From NCBI GenBank assembly GCA_015178975.1, contig WHVD01000011.1, positions 744,001 through 808,000 on the forward strand: a DNA stretch of 64,000 bases, in the 5' to 3' direction. A program made the position numbers and the translations under genes. Source of the stretch: Hysterangium stoloniferum (lineage: Eukaryota > Basidiomycota > Agaricomycetes > Hysterangiales > Hysterangiaceae). Shown here piece after piece: positions 33,272-59,848 of this stretch (position 1 is the first letter of the stretch; each line of letters opens with the position of its first letter). The notes under the pieces were generated by a model. That model searched no databases. It saw nothing but the letters and a program-made list of their open reading frames with translations, and was not told where the DNA came from.

Positions 33272-34126
33272 TTACTGATTTATCCCTCTAGCGGTTGACT
33301 CGAAAAATAATACGATAGGGGAAGTACCTGATCATGGTGGTTTGGAAACAAGTTTCATTCCCTCGACTGAGAGCCTGAGACTATCGCCGAAGCTATCCCC
33401 CCACTTTGGAAGAGACACAGTTGCCATTTGAAATGTTCCCCGACCCGTCATAGCATGTTTTTGAGCACATTTTGATGATCCCTTGTAAACTGATGGAATG
33501 TACGACTCTTCAGATTTTTTTCCCACCTTGCTTAGCTGGATTCCTGTACAAGTAGTGCGATATACCCCAATTAAACTCATTCGTTGATGCTAGACAAGTG
33601 CAAAAATTTCTTGTAAGTGGGAAAGGTGTGGTGAGATGGTGCTGATGTGAAACTAATGCCTAGATCTATACGACACGCCCAACTGATATTTTGAAAGAGG
33701 CTATACATCCACATGTGGGACCCACGCAGATCCCATAAATCTCCCCCACGTATTTTTTTTATGTGTGCATCATTGGGTTTACATGTATTATTGAAAGCTA
33801 CTATGGAATAAAATTGTATGGTTTTAAAACATACCCGTTTCGACTGTCGCTTACCCACTGACTGCAATGTCACTGCATGCAGCCCTTCTGTCAACACTTT
33901 GTAAACCATTTAAATAGATGCTATGCCCCCAATACGTACAACCACCGCCACTGCCAAACAACATAATACTAGGTATACTCAACTATATATCCTTAAATTG
34001 ATGTCAACAATTAATTATCATTGTTGGAGAGCTAGGTGGCCTGGCCCTTCGCTCCGACCACAGACCCTTTAGGCATCATAGATTACTTGTAAACCGAGTC
34101 TTGGGCCACATCAGGTTTATTTTCAA
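33272..34126. other. Duplicated non-coding flank
   Basis: No gene. 33272-33840 recurs almost unchanged at about 45870-46430 (for example CACTTTGGAAGAGACACAG and AGGCTATACATCCACATG). It is the left border of the unit array. Confidence 0.6.
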
Positions 34127-34254
34127 GGAATCCATCTTCAAATGGTGATGTGGGTGGCTCGCTTTCCATTCGGATGCGTCGCGAGGTCTCCATCAGTTCG
34201 ACCCTAAATAGCGCGTGGGCCAGAAATGAAGTGACCGAAAGGTTGAATCTACGA

Positions 34255-35096
34255 TGACGTCCTGAGAAAGGACGACATGCGCAAATGCGCTCACAGTCTA
34301 CAAGGCAGGATATATATTTGTTATCAACAGAAGAAAGCCCAGCAAAATTTCACATACGAGAGCTATTAGAAAGTGGTTCAGTATATGGATCCACGAAAGA
34401 ATGATATCCTGAAAGAGGACTTACTGCCACCGGGTGGTTCCTGAGAATCTATCAAATGTGAAAAAATTATGCGGAGAAACGCTGTTAAGGAATGTTTCAC
34501 AAGGGGGAGATGAAAGCTCACTTGTATGTTAAACTCTGACCAGGTGATGTTCCGCACTCCGTAATGCCTACCGCTCCGTCATAGAAATTTGTGCCGTTTT
34601 GAAACTACTGTATTGTAAGATAATTGTACTAGTATACAGAGAGACGCATCATGTACCAGGCCATGCCAGTGAATACTAGTAGCATTGGGTAGATTGTTCT
34701 TTACATGGACAACCAGCCTATCAGCTTGATTGGCTTCTATGGTGGGACCCGGATATATGCCTTGCGCGAGAGACTCAGCATCTGTAGCGAGAGGCACGAA
34801 TGCACACAAACCGTGAACGACCGGAGGGCAAGATCCACTGTGAAATCATACACACGAGTCTGTGGTAGTTGGCCCACCAGCCTGCTCAATACAAAAGCAG
34901 ATTCTGCTTGTGGCCGGAGGGGAGGGAGAAGAGAGACGGTTGCTTCGTAATGAAGGGGTTTGGGAACGAGACCAAGGCGAAGTTCTGGACGAAGATACCA
35001 TATGAAAGCGGCTGGAGTGATCACCGCCAGACAAAGGCCCAGGATGACTTCAAACCGCGGTCGGCCAGTGATACCAAATGGTCATCGAGCAGACAA
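34255..35096 (-). pseudogene. Multicopper oxidase 5' fragment, unit 1
   Basis: Matches the oxidase gene 57245-58126 from its first codons through HWHG to just past the HSH microexon region. It carries an extra T in the ATGACCATTTGG start region, lacks the segment coding APDGVPRTMLVVN (replaced by ATCCGGTCGTTCA), and ends at the GTAGATTCAAC junction, where gene-X sequence begins. It cannot encode an oxidase. Confidence 0.8.
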
Positions 35097-35361
35097 CGAG
35101 GATATGAGGATTCAAATAATTTAACAGCCACTGATCGTAGATGTCGCCTAACTACCAGATGTGCGTGATCTGCTCAAAGGATTCTCACAAGGCCACCAAC
35201 ACCACTAGCCGGAACTACTGTGTATGAAGCAATCATCATTGTACAAAATTAATTAGGTATTTTCGAAAAAGTATTTGAATCAGATATCTAGCACTGCCGA
35301 CGAGCGAAGCAGAACTTTGCTCATTGGATAAATGGTACCCAGGCAAAGCTTATTGTTGATA

Positions 35362-35438
35362 CAGCCGAACCTCTCGAATCCCATACACCATAGCTTCGGC
35401 TGTTTACCGAGGTGTATGGTTTATGGGAGGTTCAACTG
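35362..35438. mobile_element. 77-bp inverted-repeat element, unit 1
   Basis: Ends CAGCCGAACCTC and (reverse complement) CAGTTGAACCTC, with ~28-bp imperfect inverted repeats and a short loop. TA precedes the left end. Its termini recall the MITE at 21807. Copies lie at 43403-43474 and 50258-50334, and a decayed one near 55518-55594. Confidence 0.5.
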
Positions 35439-36377
35439 CATTACCTTGACCTGCCAGAGATGTCACCAACATGGGCAAAGTCTCAATTTATGAGTCGCCT
35501 CAGACAAAGCGGTTATGGTGATCTAGATCCAGGTTGCTACAAAGTATGCAACAACGTGTCCATAACACGCCAATGAAATAATCCTCTGATGACCAGATAC
35601 ACAAAGAAAGGCCATCAATATCAATTCGCAACGGACACATACACGATGGAGTTAAGGCATGATTTTCTGTGTCACCATGTTCGTCGAAGCATCGAAGCAT
35701 GCTCAATTCTCCAACTCTGCATTTGTGCAGCTACTTCGTTGCTCACCCCCCCTTCAAACCTTCAAAGCTACCTTCGTGAAGAGAATGCTAGGATAGGCAC
35801 TCAGCTATAAAGGGTTATTTATGCAGCCGACAAAACGCCTCGTTCCTAGCGGAGGCCACAGGTTCATCCAGATCGTCGACACCCCTCCCCCGAGCTGACA
35901 ATCCGTCATGTATGCTTCGTGGATCAGTCACTATGAGCTCTCGACAGGTGCGTGCCGTATTTTATAATTTTCACTCATAAAACCTCATCGAAAATTCAAT
36001 AGACCTTTCATGTAATATGTTCAGAAGAAGTCCCGCTAACGGCAGGGTATGTATTGTATGTGAACTCTCCCGCAAGGGCAGTGAGGATACTAGTGGCAGC
36101 AGCCGTCATGAATAAGAGCCGCCATGAGACCTAGACGATACGATTCAGTGACCACTCACATTCTGCGAGAAATCGCATCATCGGAAGAGAGCTGATTAAT
36201 AATAATCGTAAGTTTGTGGCAGTCATGATGTCTGAGTTGATAATGCCATATTGATCTTTTCATCGGTAAAAGCTGGCTCTCTCGGCGTGAACGAATTGAG
36301 AATTGTGAAAGCTAACGATGCAGACAGGCCCACGGCAGACTGGCGGCAACCTCATGAGCTGGACCCCATCCCCCACT

Positions 36378-43648: not shown

Positions 43649-45182
43649 GATGACCATTGGTATCACTGGCCGACCACGGTTTGAAATCATCCTGAGCCTC
43701 GGTCTGGCGGTGATCACTCCAGCCGTTTTTATATGGCATCTTCGTCCATAACTTGGTCTTGGCCTGATTCACAAACACCTTTATTATGAAGCAACCGTTC
43801 CCATCAGGAAAGTGGGAAGATTAGTAAGTATGCCGTCTATATTGTCTAGAGCCATCTAGGAGAGCTAGCTAGCTCCGCTAGACTCGGCTAGACATCCTAC
43901 TTTCGCGAGATCCCTATTCACTAGTCGGTACAAAAACTTACTATAGATATAGGGAGTCTAGGAAGGCTAGGGAATCTATATAGTGGGTGTGGACATTCCC
44001 AAATCCCTGATGCTCTTGTCCCTTCCCTCCGGCCACAAGCAGAATCTGCTTTTGTATTGAACAAGCTGGTGGGCCAACCACCACAGACCCGTGTGCATGA
44101 TTTCACAATGGATCTTGCAATCCGGTCGTTCACGGTTTGTGTGCATTCGTGCCTCTCGCTACAGATGCTGGGTCTCTCGCGCAAGGCATGTATCCGGGTT
44201 CCACCATAGACGCCAATCAAGCTGATAGGCTGGTTGTCCATGTAAAGAACAATCTACCCAATGCTACTAGTATTCACTGGCATGTCCTGGTACATGATAC
44301 ATCTCTTTGTATACTAGTACAATTCGCTTACAATACAGCAGTTTTAAAACGGCACAAATTTCTACGTGGGAGCGGTAGGCATTACGGAGTGCGGAATACC
44401 TCCTGGTCAGAGTTTGACATACAAATGAGCTTTCATTTCCCCCTTGTCAAACACTCCTCAACAGCATTTCTCCGCATAAAAGTTTCACATTCGGTGGATT
44501 CTCAGGAACCACCTGGTGGCAGTAAGTCCCCTTTCAGGATATCATTCTTTCGTGGGTCCATATACTGAACGATTTTCTAATAGCTCTCGTATGTGAATTC
44601 TTGCTGAGCTTTCTTCTGTTGATAACAAATATATATCCTGCCTTGTAGACTGTGAGCGCATTTGCGCACGTCGTCCTTTCTCAGGACGTCATCGTAGATT
44701 CAACACAATACACAGACGATGTCAGAGGCGCACTCACAGTGCATCCAACTCTATCCCTCCCGCCTGAATTTCCATCATGGGACGAAGAAATCGTAATTTA
44801 GAGGGCAGATTGGTATCATAGGATGAGCGAGGATCTCTTGGTTAATTATCTTTCGGTTTGTGTGTGCATCTATGGTTCAGCTTCACGACCTCTCTCATGG
44901 CAGATATAGCTGGACGGAACTCCTCGCGCCCAAGGCAATGAGCCATCCCAGACTCCGGTATAAGTTCCTTTACGCTATGAGGGCATCTCCATTAGCTTAT
45001 ATCTGTATGCAGACTCTTAATAGACTTGGTCAGTATGATTCAAAGGGCTCATATTTTAGTGTAATAAAGTCCATATTTTAACATATTTCCCCAGACCAAT
45101 ACTTCCTAGTTCACGTTCCAACCCAATAAGACGTGCGATAATTACCCAGGCCCCTTTATTCCCTCAATAGCTCACACACTTC
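43649..45182 (+). pseudogene. Multicopper oxidase fragment, unit 2
   Basis: Follows the intact gene from its start codon (57245) to the position of 58612, then stops abruptly at a junction with coiled-coil gene sequence. Lesions: a stop codon where CCAGAACTC became CCATAACTT, a 211-bp insertion (43802-44012), the same loss of the APDGVPRTMLVVN segment as units 1 and 3, and truncation of the last third including both C-terminal copper motifs. Confidence 0.85.
43802..44012. mobile_element. 211-bp insertion with inverted ends
   Basis: Absent from the other oxidase copies. Left end CATCAGGAAAGTGGGAA and right end (reverse complement) CATCAGGGATTTGGGAA are imperfect inverted repeats. No ORF. No clear target duplication was found, so the class is unknown. 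Confidence 0.55.
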
Positions 45183-46430
45183 ATTTATGAGCCCCAAGGG
45201 CACGAGGCAGCAAACCCCTAGGATGACGCTCCTGATACTCCTTCAGAAACCCTTCTCAAGATGGCAGTAATGAGTTAGATGGCGTAGAGGCAGAGGCAAG
45301 GACTCCTTTTCGTTAATGGATAGACTCGGAGACCTCTGCCCAAGTCAAGGAAAAGCCTGGTATCGAAGCTACGCCCCGACTATTAATGAAGGCCCAAAAT
45401 CTATTTTATACGGACGAGTCTGAAACGTCGACGACGCCCAACAGGCATGGCGACCGCGAGAAAAACCATGTTGAGGAATATCTCCCCCAGCGTGTATTAT
45501 CTCCTCCGGATTTGCCTCTGCTCGACCAATATGTGCAATATTCCATGACAGATTCGGATTTCCAAAGGTTCAATGAGGTTCTTGTACGGTGAATTGGGGA
45601 GACGGAGGAGTTGCAGAAGACGCAAATAGCTGAAATGCAGTGCAAGTTGGACGAATTACGTCGTGAGTTGACGGACAAGGATGCTGAGATGCTTTTACTT
45701 GAAGAGGTGAGTTTAGTCCTGTTGATATACGAAAGGACATGTATTTAACACCGCGCAACACCAGAGGAATGAGGTCCTCGAGTCTACCCTCGAGAAGATA
45801 ATGGAGAGATTACAGCAGATCGTGGTTTCGAGTCGTGACTGCTTTCATGTCAAGTTCTGCTATTAGTTACTGATTTATCCCTCTAGCGACGGTTGACTCG
45901 AAAAATAACACGATAGGGGAAGTACCTGACCATAGTGGTTTGGAAGCAAGTTTCATTCCCTCGACTGAAGGTCTGAAACTATCGCCGAAGCTATCCCCCC
46001 ACTTTGGAAGAGACACAGTCGCCATTTGAAATGTTCCCCGACCCGTCATAGCATGATTTTGACCACATTTTGATGATCCCTTGTAAACTGATGGAATGTA
46101 CGATTCTTCAGATTTTTTTCCCCACCTTGCTTAGCTGGATTCCTGTACAAGTAGTGCAATATACCATTAAACTCATTCGTTGATGCTAGACAAGTGCAAA
46201 AAATTCTTATAAGTGGGAATGGTGTGGTGAGATGGTGCTGATGTGAGACTAATGCCTAGATCTATACGACACGCCCAACTGATATTTTGAAAGAGGCTAT
46301 ACATCCACATGTGGGACCCACGTAGATCCCATAAATCTCCCCCACGGATTTTTTCTATTTGTACATTATTGGGTTTACATGTATTATTGAAAGCCACTAT
46401 GAAATTAAATTGTATGGTTTTTACAACATA
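45183..46430 (+). pseudogene. Decayed copy of the short coiled-coil gene
   Basis: Begins mid-gene (AGCCCCAAGGGCACGAGGCAG, equal to 32595 onward) and continues through the intron and flank equal to about 33840. Deletions shift the frame early (AACCCCTAGG and CAGAAACCCTTC), and stops follow (for example GTTAATGG for GTCAATGG and GTACGGTGA for GTGCAGCGA). It is fused directly to the truncated oxidase on its left and to gene X on its right. Confidence 0.85.
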
Positions 46431-49330: not shown

Positions 49331-50257
49331 GGGATGGGGTCCAGCTCATGAGGTTGCCGCCAGTCTGCCGTGGACCTGTCTCCATCGTTAGCTTTCACGA
49401 TTCTCAATTCGTTCACACCGAGAGAGTCAGCTTTTACCGATGAAAAGATCAATATGGCATTATCAACTAGACATCATGACTGCCACAAACTTACGATTAT
49501 TATTAATCAGCTCTCTTCCGATGATGCGATTTCTCGCAGAATGTGAGTGGTCACTGAATCGTATCGTCTAGGTCTCATGGCGGCTCTTATTCATGACGGC
49601 TGCTGCCACTAGTATCCTCACTGCCCTTGCGGGAGAGTTCACATACAATACATACCCTGCCGTTAGCGGGACTTCTGCTGAACATATTACATGAAAGGTC
49701 TATTGAATTTTCGATGAGGTTTTATGAGTGAAAATTATAAAATACGGCACGCACCTGTCGAGAGCTCATAGTGACTGATCCACGAAGCATACATGACGGA
49801 TTGTCAGCTCGGGGAGGGGTGTCGACGATCTGGATGAACCTGTGGCCTCCGCTAGGAACGAGGCGTTTTGTCGGCTTCATAAATACCCCTTTATAGCTGA
49901 GTGCCTATCCTAGCATTCTCTTCACGAAGGTGGCTTTGAAGGTTTGAAGGGGGGGTGAGCAACGAAGTAGCTGCACAAATGCAGAGTTGGAGAATTGAGC
50001 ATGCTTCGATGCTTCGACGAACATGGTGACACAGAAAATCATGCCTTAACTCCATCGTGTATGTTGTCCGTTGCGAATTGATATTGATGGCCTTTCTTTG
50101 TGTATCTGGTCATCAGAGGATTATTTCATTGGCGTGACACGTTGTTGCATACTTTGTAGCAACCTGGATCTAGATCACCATAACCGCTTTGTCTGAGGCG
50201 ACTCACTAATTGAGACTTTACCCATGTTGGTGACATCTCTGGCAGGTCAAGGTACTG

Positions 50258-50334
50258 CAGTTGAACCTCCCATAAACCATACACCTCGGTAAACAGCCGA
50301 AGCTATAGTGTATGGGATTCGAGAGGTTCGGCTG
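50258..50334. mobile_element. Inverted-repeat element copy, unit 3
   Basis: 77 bp from CAGTTGAACC to GGTTCGGCTG, followed by TA; the best preserved copy. Confidence 0.5.
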
Positions 50335-50609
50335 TATCAACAATAAGCTTTGCCTGGGTACCATTTATCCAATGAGCAAAGTTCTGCTTCGCTCGTCGGC
50401 AGTGCCAGATATCTGATTCAAATACTTTTTCGAAAATACCTAATTAATTTTGTACAATGATGATTGCTTCATACACAGTAGTTCCGGCTAGGGTGGTGTT
50501 GGTGGCCTTGTGAGAATCCTTTGAGCAGATCACGCACATCTGGTAGTTAGGCGACATCTACGATCAGTGGCTGTTAAATTATTTGAATCCTCATATCCTC
50601 GTTGTCTGC

Positions 50610-51451
50610 TCGATGACCATTTGGTATCACTGGCCGGTTTGAAGTCATCCTGGGCCTTTGTCTGGCGGTGATCACTCCAGCCGCTTTCATATGGTATCTT
50701 CGTCCAGAACTTCGCCTTGGTCTTGTTCACAAACACCTTCATTACGAAGCAATCGTCTCTCTTCTCCCTCCCTCCGGCCACAAGCAGAATCTGCTTTTGT
50801 ATTGAGCAGGCTGGTGGGCCAACCACCACAGACTCGTGTGTATGATTTCACAGTGGATCTTGCAATCCGGTCGTTCACGGTTTGTGTGCATTCGTGCCTC
50901 TCGCTACAGATGCTGAGTCTCTCGCGCAAGGCATATATCCGGGTCCCACCATAGAAGCCAATCAAGCTGATAGGCTGGTTGTCCATGTAAAGAACAATCT
51001 ACCCAATGCTACTAGTATTCACTGGCATGGCCTGGTACATGTGATGTGTCTCTCTGTATACTAGTACAATTATCTTACAATACAGTAGTTTCAAAACGGC
51101 ACAAATTTCTATGACGGAGCGGTAGGCATTACGGAGTGCGGAACATCTCCTGGTCAGAGTTTAACATACAAGTGAGCTTTCATCTCCCCCTCGTGAAACA
51201 TTCCTTAACAGCGTTTCTCCGCATAAAGGTTTCACATTCGATGGATTCTCAGGAACCACCCGGTGGCAGTAAGTCCTCTTTCAGGATATCATTCTTTCGT
51301 GGATCCATATACTGAACCACTTTCTAATAGCTCTCGTATGTGAAATTTTGCTAGGCTTTCTTCTGTTGATAACAAATATATATCCTGCCTTGTAGACTAT
51401 GAGCGCATTTGCGCATGTCGTCCTTTCTCAGGGCGTCATCGTAGATTCAAC
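50610..51451 (+). pseudogene. Multicopper oxidase 5' fragment, unit 3
   Basis: Same layout as the unit 1 fragment: extra T after the start codon region, the ATCCGGTCGTTCA replacement, and truncation at GTAGATTCAAC with gene-X sequence following. In addition the donor after the 3-nt microexon is changed (ACTATGAGC instead of ACTGTAAGC). Non-functional as read. Confidence 0.8.
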
Positions 51452-52887
51452 CTTTCGGTCACTTCATTTCTGGCCCACGCGCTATTTAGGGTCGAACTGA
51501 TGGAGACCCCGCGACGCATCCGAATGGAAAGCGAGCCACCCACATCACCATTTGAAGATGGATTCCTTGAAAACAAACCTGATGTGGCCTGTCAACCATG
51601 CTTTGTGGGAATCCAATATGTTCCCCTCCACTGCCCTCCCCAATACCCCTGGATACTGTCGGCCCCAGTCACTCTCTGGTGACCCTGCTATATCGTCCTC
51701 CGAATCGGTTTCCGCTACTGAGCCTGCATTGTTTTCATATGATGGTGGGTCTGAAACTGGCGTCTTCGACCCTCAAGATCGAAACTTTACCAAGGCGAAT
51801 ATTTATATCAATGACCCAGTATCTCACATTTATAACACAGGACAATTGTCTGCTCGAAAGGCAGGTCCGACTGATGGCCGTTATTCTTGGGGCCAGGGAT
51901 AACCATGGCATTGGGAGGAATCGGACTCCCCTGGTACGTAAATTTTATTTCTTTGTCTGGGATCCGTAATCATCTTTTGCACATACATACAGAGTACTAT
52001 TTATCATTCACTGAAAGTCCGTGTTACTATCTCCCGAGCTCGCATCTTATCGAGGCTATTGAAGTGGTCCTGGTATGCATTGCGATCATATATTCCTAAC
52101 CGCATAAATGCACTGTTTTTCTGCCCTCATATTTAATATCAGGTCATTCTCCGAAGAACATCTGTGGCGTCCCACACGGTTGGATGTCGGACTCGGTCAA
52201 AACCGCACTCGTCTTGAAACACACAAAGACTACACTTATTCAGGTGCGCTCTGACGTGAAACAAAGGTAAGTTTTCCTGGACCGAAAATGTATAATTTTA
52301 CTAAACTATACATAACAACTAAACGATTCCATCCACCATGTCGAGAACCCGAGTGACCGAGTTGACATAGTGGCATTGGGAAATCAACTCGGGAATACAA
52401 TTACAACTGGGTGTCTTCATTCGATTCGCGTTCCTGGTGAGCTGCTATCCCGTTTTTCTTCCCCTTTCTATTTATTCTTTTGTTTTATTTTATCACCTAT
52501 ACTGATTTTGGATGATAGCGCGGCATCCCTACCATCTATCCGGGGCCGAGCCACTGGAACCAGGCCGACATTGCAATGAAAGATATCTGGGGCCGGACTA
52601 CTGGAACCAGGCCGACATTGCACTGAAAGATATCTGCGAAAAATGCCTCGAAGAAACTACAAGTGAGTGCGGATTCTGCTTCGGAGACTTGCTTGCTGCA
52701 CGAGTTATTCAGACCTTTCACCCGCATTTTGAAGTCTGATTATGCGGTCTATGGTGATCCTACTGAGGCCCCCAATGTGGCCCTTTCAACTGCCCCACTC
52801 GAGGATTGGCAATTGACGGTTGATACGGCCGCCGCAAAGGTCACCGGGATGACATCTATTCTGAAACAGCGCAAATATCAACCATAA
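51452..52887 (+). pseudogene. Gene-X fragment, unit 4
   Basis: The longest copy. METPRRIRMESEPP at 51500, a 116-codon ORF 51552-51902 with SSSESVSATEPALFSYDGG and KANIYINDPVSHIYNTGQL, GVPHGWMSDSVKTALVLKHT (52155-52220), NQLGNTITTG, the 47-bp duplication and the terminal SDYAVYGDPTEAPNV segment. It may be the remains of one multi-exon gene or of two. I could not identify the product. The 5' part is fused to oxidase sequence at 51451. Confidence 0.45.
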
Positions 52888-57244: not shown

Positions 57245-59848
57245 ATGACCATTGGTATCACTGGCCGACCACGGTTTGAAATCATCCTGGGCCTTTGTCT
57301 GGCGGTGATCACTCCAGCCGCTTTCATATGGCATCTTCGTCCAGAACTCGGCCTTGGTCTCATTCACAAACACCTTCATTACGAAGCAATCGTCCCTCTT
57401 CTCCCTCCCCTCCGGCCACAAGCAGAATCTGCTTTTGTATTGAACAAGCTGGTCGGCCAACCACCACAGACCCGTGTGTATGATTTCACAGTGGATCTTG
57501 CATGGGGGGCACCAGATGGAGTGCCTCGGACCATGCTTGTTGTTAACGGTTTGTGTGCATCCGTGCCTCTCGCTACAGATGCTGAGTCTCTCGCGCAAGG
57601 CATGTATCCGGGTCCCACCATAGAAGCCAATCAAGCTGATAGGCTGGTTGTCCATGTAAAGAACAATCTACCCAATGCTACTAGTATTCACTGGCATGGC
57701 CTGGTACGTGATACGTATCTCTATACAGTAGTACAATTCACTTACAATGCAGTAGTTTCAAAACGGCACAAATTTCTACGACGGAGCGGTAGGCATTACG
57801 GAGTGCGGAATACCTCCTGGTCAGAGTTTAACATATAAGTGAGCTTTCATCTCCTCCTTGTCAAACACTCCTTAACAGCATTTCTCCGCATAAAAGTTTC
57901 ACATTCGGTGGATTCTCAGGGACCACCTGGTGGCAGTAAGTCCCTTTAAGGATATCATTCTTTCCTGCGTCCATATACTGAACGACTTTCTAATAGCTCT
58001 CGTATGTGAAATCTTGCTGGACTTTCTTCTGTTGATAACAAATATATATCCTGCCTTGTAGACTGTAAGCGCATTTGCGCTCGTCATCCTTTCTCTAATC
58101 TCACAGGACGTCATCGTAGATTCAACACAATACACAGACGGCGTCAGCGGCGCACTCATAGTGCATCCAACTCTATCCCCGCCGCCTGAATTTCCATCAT
58201 GGGACGAAGAAATCGTAATTCAGATGGCAGATTGGTACCATAGGATGAGTGAGGATCTCTTGGTTGATTATCTTTCGGTTTGTGTGTGCATCTATGGTTC
58301 AGCTTCACGACCTCTCTCATGGCAGATATAGCTGGACGGAATTGCTGGCGCTCAAGGCAATGAACCTATTCCAGACTCCGGTGTAAGTTCCTTTACGCTA
58401 TGAGGGCATCTCCTTTAGCTTATATCTGTGTGCAGACTCTTAATGGACTTGGTCAGTATGATTCAAAGGGCTCATATTTTAGTGTAAGAAAGTCCATATT
58501 TTAACATATTCCACCGGACCAATACTTCCTAGTTCACGCTCCAACCCAATAAAACGTGCGATCATTACCCGGGCTTTCTTATTCTCTCAATACCTCACAC
58601 ACTTCATTTATAGCTACAGACTTCGCCTGATAAATGCTGGCTCTTTCCCGTCGATACGCTTTTCCGTAGATTGGCACCCGCTCACCCTGATAGAAGCTGA
58701 TGGAACGATGCTAGAACCAGTCACAGTCTCCGGGATAACTGTCGCTGTGGCACAACGCTATTCTGTCCTCTTACACACAAACGCGACGGCAAATGAAAAC
58801 GGAACTTATTGGATACGAACTATTTTACAGGACGATATGTTCAAGTACAAGTACTTCTCGAATCTAAATGTTAGAGCTATTCTTCGGTATGGCGGGGTCG
58901 GTTTATATCCACCAGATATATTCTCATGGGAATTCTTCACTCTAAATTCAGATACGCTGGGGCGCCTTCCCTCGGACTTCCTGGCCATCCCGATTCACCA
59001 GATCCAGGCCCTGGGGTGGACAATGCTTTGGATGTTGATGGATTTACACATCTCAGACCATTAATACCTGAACCCTCACCGGAGGTCACCAAGGTATATA
59101 CAATGACCATGTCCTTCCAGAAAATATCGGATGCGAGGGTACTCGGGTTTATGAACACCACTGTGCGTGTACTGCTTTGAAGAGTTACCGGTAATTCTTA
59201 CCTATGATTTAGAGCTGGGAGATACCGAGGGGAGACACCACCCTTTTGGCTGTAGCAAGGAATCCTAAAGGCTATGCTCCAGAGGGCGCGATCATCGCCC
59301 CTGTTGACCAGCTAATGATAACGGAAGACTCAATCCAGGTGGTCGAACTCCGCATTGTATGTATTTTTTTTCTCGACATTTATAGCGTTACACAGAAAAC
59401 TCATCAAGCGAGTTAGGATAATCTAGACGACGGGGACCATCCGTTCCATTTACACGGATTAAGACCTTGGCTGTAAGCCTCTACCTCCGTGCTCTGGAAA
59501 GCGCTCTCATCTCACTCGCCCGTCCGTAAAGCATGGGTTCTGCACCAGGACGGTACATAGGCCAGTCTGTCGACCCACACCCTCTACGCCGCGATACATT
59601 CGTCATCCCTGCCTTTTCGTACTACATTATCCGCTTCGTCACCGACAACCGTAGGTGCTTCGGTTACCCAAATAGCCAGGCTGTTCACCAATTGTTTAAA
59701 TAAAACAGCAGGCCTTTGGGCATTCCACTGCCATTTGGTATGGCATATGGCAGCAGGTTTACTAATGCAGATCAACAGTTTACCGTCGAAATCAGCACAA
59801 TTTGACATACCGCAGGATATTATCTCGCAGTGTGCGGCTGCTAAATAA
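57245..59848 (+). CDS. Laccase-like multicopper oxidase, membrane-anchored
   Basis: Oxidises phenols or metal ions while reducing O2 to water; laccase versus ferroxidase use is not decided by sequence. Exons: 57245-57548, 57600-57703, 57756-57838, 57897-57935, 57997-58001, 58062-58064, 58120-58277, 58332-58382, 58436-58483, 58533-58555, 58614-58886, 58952-59162, 59213-59356, 59417-59472, 59532-59650, 59709-59848, giving 586 aa with every phase consistent. An N-terminal hydrophobic segment (ILGLCLAVITPAAFIW) should anchor or export it. Copper motifs: HWHGLFQ (~132), HSHYSTQYTDG (177-179), HPFHLHG (490-495) and HCHLVWHMAAGL (547-553). HSH is built across 5-nt and 3-nt exons. All ligands are present, so the gene looks functional. 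It is the only complete copy; three fragments lie upstream. Confidence 0.9.

Follow-up and report, generated by a model that had tools for sequence, protein, structure and literature searches.

In the truffle-like fungus Hysterangium stoloniferum (Hysterangiales, Phallomycetidae), a multicopper oxidase gene very probably carries eight coding bases of its second copper-ligand motif in two microexons, one of 5 nucleotides (nt) and one of 3 nt, which three ordinary introns split from their surroundings and from each other and which would normally both be present in the messenger RNA (mRNA). The gene lies in a stretch of 64 kb (the window, by which we mean the whole of the DNA that was analyzed), itself part of a contig of 1,460,784 bases in an assembly of 111 Mb. 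In other words, the histidines that are to hold copper would be assembled from pieces of coding sequence as small as 3 nt, and the question is how such pieces find their way into the message at all.

A copper-ligand motif in four pieces

The pieces of the motif, and the gene to which they belong, are as follows.

57245..59848, plus strand: multicopper oxidase gene, 16 coding exons, 586 amino acids (aa); intron positions and phases 15/15 common to a paralog on contig C57
57897..57935, plus strand: exon 4, 39 nt, ending ...TGG TGG CA
57936..57996, plus strand: intron 4, 61 nt, GTAAGT...TAATAG; if retained, stop at codon 178
57997..58001, plus strand: exon 5, the 5-nt microexon CTCTC; end of His177, Ser178 and first base of His179; CGCGC in the paralog
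58002..58061, plus strand: intron 5, 60 nt, GTATGT...TTGTAG; if retained, stop at codon 181
58062..58064, plus strand: exon 6, the 3-nt microexon ACT; end of His179 and first base of Tyr180; ATT in the paralog
58065..58119, plus strand: intron 6, 55 nt, GTAAGC...TCGTAG; if retained, frame shift and stop at codon 221
58120..58277, plus strand: exon 7, starting AT TCA ACA CAA TAC; end of Tyr180, then STQYTDG

Joined, they spell TGG TGG CAC TCT CAC TAT TCA ACA CAA TAC, that is, W175 W176 H177 S178 H179 Y180 S T Q Y. An earlier, sequence-only reading of the window had proposed the same four coding pieces (57897-57935, CTCTC at 57997-58001, ACT at 58062-58064 and 58120 onward), and it was right to the base; its three introns of 61, 60 and 55 nt, with donors GTAAGT, GTATGT and GTAAGC and three TAG acceptors, are where it put them, and its joined reading, WWHSHYSTQYTDG with the HSH copper-ligand motif, holds as well and is backed by the paralog. 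These two internal exons, 5 and 3 nt long and flanked by GT-AG introns, fall under the 15 nt that mark the upper limit of a microexon. The full reading WWHSHYSTQYTDG aligns gap-free with WYHSHTDGQYEDG of yeast Fet3, and of three readings scored against the Pfam family Cu-oxidase_3 the one that keeps all 8 nt scores best (117.6 bits, the others reaching 111.0 and 98.6).

What kind of gene is it? As predicted from its sequence, the gene codes for a fungal multicopper oxidase and is intact, and we speak of its product as a predicted one. Its 15 introns are each 49-65 nt long, and the spliced reading holds 4/4 copper motifs (HWHGL, HSH, HPFHLHG and HCHLVWH); four histidine-rich motifs of this sort are the expected set of the three-domain multicopper oxidases of ferroxidase or laccase type. 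The Cu-oxidase_3, Cu-oxidase and Cu-oxidase_2 domains score 125, 123.1 and 102.1 bits, all above cut-off, in a draft model of 15 exons and 603 aa that had retained intron 1 (57549-57599, 51 nt, open and in frame). That draft, replaced after comparison with the paralog and with the NCBI model of the gene, P0001, was the query for the domain, structure and first homolog searches and the reference row and base of the homolog alignments, and the microexon region is unaffected by the change. P0001, which NCBI names “multicopper oxidase 2A [Hysterangium stoloniferum],” is 94% identical to the draft reading. Among solved structures the best match of the window protein is yeast Fet3, with several laccases only slightly behind. 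Portions of a review of basidiomycete multicopper oxidases (PMC3129051) link the ferroxidase activity of Fet3 to E185, D283 and D409 and report Phanerochaete chrysosporium Mco1 with E185 and D409; by a hand count on the alignment, with an assumed numbering offset of 21, the window protein appears to have the equivalents of E185 and D409, and a Lys at that of D283.

The sister gene, chance and other fungi

The paralog (contig C57, locus L037) shares about 63% of its amino acids with the window gene and reads TGG TGG CA / CGCGC / ATT / TT TCT ACA CAA TAT, giving HAHFSTQYTDG, across introns of 57, 65 and 51 nt. The 5+3 pair has identical position and phase in the two genes and different letters. 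Between them, the introns at the motif agree at 28/61, 29/65 and 26/55 positions and the flanking exons at 28/39 and 110/158 (figures that are not calibrated against random pairs), and because the motif introns have diverged relative to the flanking exons, the split does not look like that of a recent copy. Without its 3-nt exon the paralog reads WWHALSTQY and loses its second His, so the 3-nt exon there carries part of the ligand itself. The NCBI model of this gene, P0008, reads WWQDSTTAVSTQ; it looks as if a single intron had been drawn from the first donor past both microexons, which would be a prediction error.

Could chance have stitched the motif together? We shuffled the interval (184 nt in the window gene) 5000 times per gene, leaving the donor at its start and the acceptor at its end in place and preserving the dinucleotides of the rest, and scored chains (no intron shorter than 40 nt, no more than 30 nt retained) for HxH, a fitting residue and STQY. 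The exact 5+3 split with the motif appeared in 0/5000 shuffles of the window gene and 0/5000 of the paralog. Some chain with HxH, a fitting residue and STQY turned up 2/5000 and 4/5000 times, respectively, none of them with good sites throughout, and the looser combination of HxH and STQY 46/5000 times for each gene. When a splice-site model was trained on the 24 other introns that the sister genes have between them, the donors used in the window gene ranked 1-3 of 12 GTs, its acceptors 1-3 of 8 AGs, and the donors used in the paralog were the top 3 of 15.

For other fungi we have proteins. A first search returned 1056 matches, of which the best 120 were examined; a second, with the paralog as query, returned 707, the best 120 of which added nine proteins (P0121-P0129). 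Some of all these, labeled “lgn,” are single long open reading frames (ORFs) on contigs of 2.0-3.8 kb; given a gene with 15 introns, we infer that they are assembled transcripts, and we call them transcript-like. Among the 43 closest listed homologs, sorted by text patterns of our own, the motif is regular in 6/6 transcript-like proteins (including P0043, which is present in UniRef and nr too) and in 4/37 others (including partial models and both models of the H. stoloniferum genes). Fisher's test on these counts gives p 3.4e-5, a descriptive figure only, as it ignores shared ancestry. The nearest transcript-like protein, P0002, reads HSHYSTQ. Outside the 43 closest, 57/86 proteins are regular, and irregular motifs are therefore concentrated in near relatives. 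Many gene predictions in those relatives, to judge by their sequences, are probably wrong at the microexon site. The sequence-only reading had expected gene finders to miss the microexons and to call the gene broken; the first half of this fares well, as 33/37 of the close proteins that are not transcript-like lack the regular motif, but the second does not, as the NCBI model is a full-length oxidase that is short of one residue here.

In the alignment, 18/120 homologs lack one residue at exactly the Tyr column (four of them, P0024, P0025, P0028 and P0059, are garbled otherwise too), and over the 80 columns within 40 residues of it similar gaps occur at two only (2 at the neighboring His, 22 at a loop). 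Eleven of 129 proteins, P0001 included, pass from HxH directly to S/D/A-T, which fits a 5-nt exon used and a 3-nt exon skipped, and P0012, P0040, P0051, P0055 and P0085 have HAL or HSL before STQ, STE or DTQ, the form to be expected from the paralog without its 3-nt exon. The one-residue-short models belong to Hysterangiales, Agaricales (Cristinia), Gomphales (Ramaria), Hymenochaetales (Rickenella) and Sistotremastrales, and presumably to Russulales and Polyporales as well. The comparison suggests that the 5+3 pair is old and probably predates the split of several Agaricomycete orders. Of the homologous genes compared, the paralog keeps the position and phase of the split, and those of other species, to which the sequence-only reading had looked for a check, fit indirectly, through protein models.

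Weighing the readings

How would a spliceosome deal with such exons? We imagine that it recognizes each intron of 55-61 nt across the intron (intron definition) and that the three introns are removed one after another, stepwise because an acceptor and a donor only 3 nt apart leave little room for both to be bound together; once one intron has gone, the microexons would be joined to a longer exon. The mature mRNA would normally hold both, since a message without the 5 nt is out of frame and one without the 3 nt is short of an amino acid next to the copper ligands; in the paralog, the amino acid lost would itself be a ligand. The introns of 51-65 nt at the motif in the two sister genes fit intron definition, which, according to excerpts of PMC5639578, has been demonstrated in filamentous ascomycetes through the two-step splicing of stwintrons. 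Stepwise, intron-defined splicing is, on these sequences, the likely course.

One could go further and suppose stwintron-like nesting here, too, with removal of an inner intron rebuilding a splice site of the outer one. The likeness is real as far as it goes, as stwintrons are also excised serially by intron definition (PMC5639578, in the same excerpts), and the spacing of neighboring splice sites, 3 and 5 nt by their coordinates, hints at some order of removal. In a stwintron, however, nested introns split a splice signal and leave no coding exon between them, whereas the window gene has all its donors and acceptors unbroken in the DNA as it stands, and its reading includes both microexons. 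We have rejected the idea (no signal is interrupted by another intron, and the three introns are complete, normal in size for the gene and each excisable alone), and nesting seems to us scarcely credible. Of what the sequence-only reading had said about splicing, then, its doubt about exon definition for exons of 3-5 nt and its proposal of intron definition appear sound, and the nested, stwintron-like order that it offered as the alternative goes unsupported.

Another rival comes from the annotation itself. Between the flanking exons of the window gene we enumerated all chains of at most three GT-AG introns, none shorter than 40 nt. Among the 74, 4 are open and in frame, and 2/4 keep HxH: the full 5+3 reading and the reading that lacks the 3-nt exon only. 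On this enumeration we rejected one larger exon, or a different chain of introns, as the reading. Skipping exon 5 leads to a stop at codon 201 and skipping both microexons to a stop at codon 200, and skipping the 3-nt exon keeps the frame and both His, loses only Tyr180 and reads WWHSHSTQYTDG. The sequence-only reading had held that any other reading would lose the second His or meet a stop, and in this it was mistaken, because the ACT-skipping chain is open with both His kept. It is also what P0001 has (5-nt exon used, ACT skipped). Might only the 5-nt exon be real, with ACT intronic and WWHSHSTQYTDG the true product? We think this very unlikely. Such a product needs an intron of 118 nt in which both the second-best donor and the second-best acceptor of the region go unused, and it is one residue short in a conserved segment of the active site; the equivalent skip is the one that costs the paralog its second His, and the 43 closest listed homologs include six transcript-like proteins, all with the residue after HxH.

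The two microexons might instead act as a switch, inclusion giving an active enzyme and skipping or retention giving a Tyr-less or truncated form, so that oxidase output is regulated by splicing. There is something to be said for this: skipping of exon 5, skipping of both, or retention of intron 4, 5 or 6 brings early stops, a skip of exon 6 stays in frame, and a fungal microexon switch has been described, in a source drawn on in part, for Trichoderma Xlr2. Yet the splice sites of the region are strong rather than weak, and the regular motif in all six transcript-like close homologs argues against a switch, which we regard as rather unlikely. A wider version, in which the catalytic motif is kept in its 5+3 form across much of the Agaricomycetes and inclusion of the pair serves as a conserved switch or checkpoint for the active enzyme, one that copper or iron, for instance, could tune, is a doubtful proposition of somewhat longer odds. 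Finally, the gene could be decaying and its motif a chance join, as three degenerate or truncated oxidase copies in the same window might lead one to fear; to this we assign next to no probability. Its 586 open codons, its four copper motifs, the 0/5000 shuffles and the same split in the paralog stand against decay, and the open reading and the paralog's split led us to rule it out.

The split into two microexons, which we prefer to all of these, has points to its discredit, and they should be seen together. Its support in H. stoloniferum consists entirely of DNA and protein comparison, and P0001, the NCBI model of the very gene, skips ACT. The agreement of 15/15 introns with the paralog is partly non-independent, as the family consensus had some part in the choice of exons for the window gene. 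In the paralog, the acceptors used come 1, 4 and 7 among 19 AGs, a less clear result than that for its donors. Of its 362 chains, 12 are open and 2/12 keep HxH, namely, the 5+3 reading and one extra chain that reads HAHSTTAVSTQ (with introns of at least 30 nt allowed, a shorter minimum applied to the paralog only, 64/1309 chains are open). The transcript origin of the “lgn” proteins is deduced from their long uninterrupted ORFs. Conservation beyond H. stoloniferum is argued from irregular protein models, some of which, taken singly, may truly differ, and the whole alignment has three columns with more one-residue gaps than the Tyr column (87, 40 and 22, the last being the loop column already named), all in segments of variable length.

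Other copies, other tiny exons and what they mean

The rest of the gene, the window and the genome offers some further features.

58533..58555, plus strand: exon 10 of the oxidase gene, an additional small exon of 23 nt; also in the C57 paralog
34264..35085, minus strand: truncated copy B (extent of the BLAST match); CTCTC 34358-34362, ACT 34295-34297
43650..45192, plus strand: degenerate copy D (extent of the BLAST match); CTCTC 44584-44588, ACT 44649-44651
50613..51429, plus strand: truncated copy C (extent of the BLAST match); CTCTC 51331-51335, ACT 51396-51398; next six bases ATGAGC

Within the gene, P0001 also deviates at exon 8 (58278-58435), where it has SVCVASPLAYICVQTLNG and the present reading has SLDGIAGAQGNEPIPDSGTLNG, the latter agreeing with the paralog; this is an apparent further annotation error. 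The last acceptor (59700-59712) is a tandem, ...AACAGCAG, whose first AG gives DNPGLWAFHCH and whose second gives DNRLWAFHCH, a possible one-residue alternative next to the HCH copper motif.

Copies B, C and D are about 91-95% identical to the window gene in DNA. Copies B and C stop resembling it just inside exon 7 (by eye; the BLAST matches end slightly earlier) and are 97.5% identical to each other over 1.9 kb (34104-36000 and 49702-51589), and their common end together with this identity suggests duplication after truncation. Copy D (44013-45192) has, by eye, a Val codon where HWHG has its Gly and, in the segment that follows the HSH motif, a stop codon in frame. We also scanned the other multicopper oxidase loci of H. 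stoloniferum (contigs C124, C134, C246, C512, C79, C212 and C27) for the motifs. On C27 the HSH motif lies within one exon, and on C124 (the middle of three stretches), C134, C246 and C79 it is apparently interrupted, by eye, by a single intron each, at nearby but differing positions; that is, loci L039, L041, L042, L044 and L046 (C124, C134, C246, C79 and C27) have zero or one intron there. The scan did not find the HWHG or HPFHLHG pattern in the other two C124 stretches, C512 or C212. Among the oxidase genes of this genome, the surroundings of the HSH motif seem to be a place where introns turn up repeatedly.

Ultra-short exons as such are already known in plants and fungi, and the reports that follow are drawn from portions of the papers cited. 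Conserved plant microexons of 1-15 nt are often absent from annotation, one of 5 nt and one of 12 nt lie side by side in a rice transcript, and exons of 1 nt have been confirmed by sequencing after reverse transcription PCR (PMC8831610). These and the exons of the window gene are alike in being tiny, conserved and missed or skipped by annotation; the plant exons, however, were shown with RNA, whereas the 5+3 tandem, placed at a metal-ligand motif, is known from sequence alone. Among fungi, Phlebia radiata has exons down to 2-3 nt (PMC6540522) and the lipS gene of Dactylellina haptotyla has two 3-nt exons (PMC5639578). Both resemble the window gene in their 3-nt exons and small introns, the one being a genome-wide remark on predicted genes (PMC6540522) and the other a different gene, in an ascomycete (PMC5639578); neither report, in the portions used, mentions the oxidase motif. 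Microexons of 2-10 codons occur in P450 genes of P. chrysosporium (PMC1184071), and a paper of 2024 states that functional microexons were previously undescribed in filamentous fungi (PMC11121469).

In the open-licence PMC literature on microexons or short exons and laccase or multicopper oxidase, a search that was not exhaustive found no paper on this split motif. Larrondo et al. 2004, to go by the title, reportedly dealt with a P. chrysosporium mco gene cluster with altered splicing, and that paper may already contain the same microexons. Two homologous multicopper oxidases of P. chrysosporium, Q6QNN1 and Q6QNN4, are 51% and 53% identical to the window protein over 90% and 67% of the query, and their motifs are regular (HAHYDTQ and HAHYSTQ). 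The second of them, P0116 in our list, ends ...GFLNTTVRPVSRPGVRCSR, which looks like a retained intron matching intron 12 of the window gene and would agree with the altered splicing of that title.

What, then, is the worth of eight bases? The tandem of a 5-nt and a 3-nt exon, which diverged paralogs share and which several mushroom orders probably have in common, would be a stringent natural test of the minimum exon size that a fungal spliceosome can manage without exon definition. If most of the irregular models are prediction errors, as the paralog's appears to be, a search of mushroom genomes for active oxidases that went by their copper ligands would throw out many members of the group or clone them wrongly. 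And should the switch be real after all, almost any splicing error would destroy the copper site, so that inclusion of the 5+3 pair would gate the active oxidase. In the comparisons made here, the microexon pair appears to be a well-supported and instructive extreme case.
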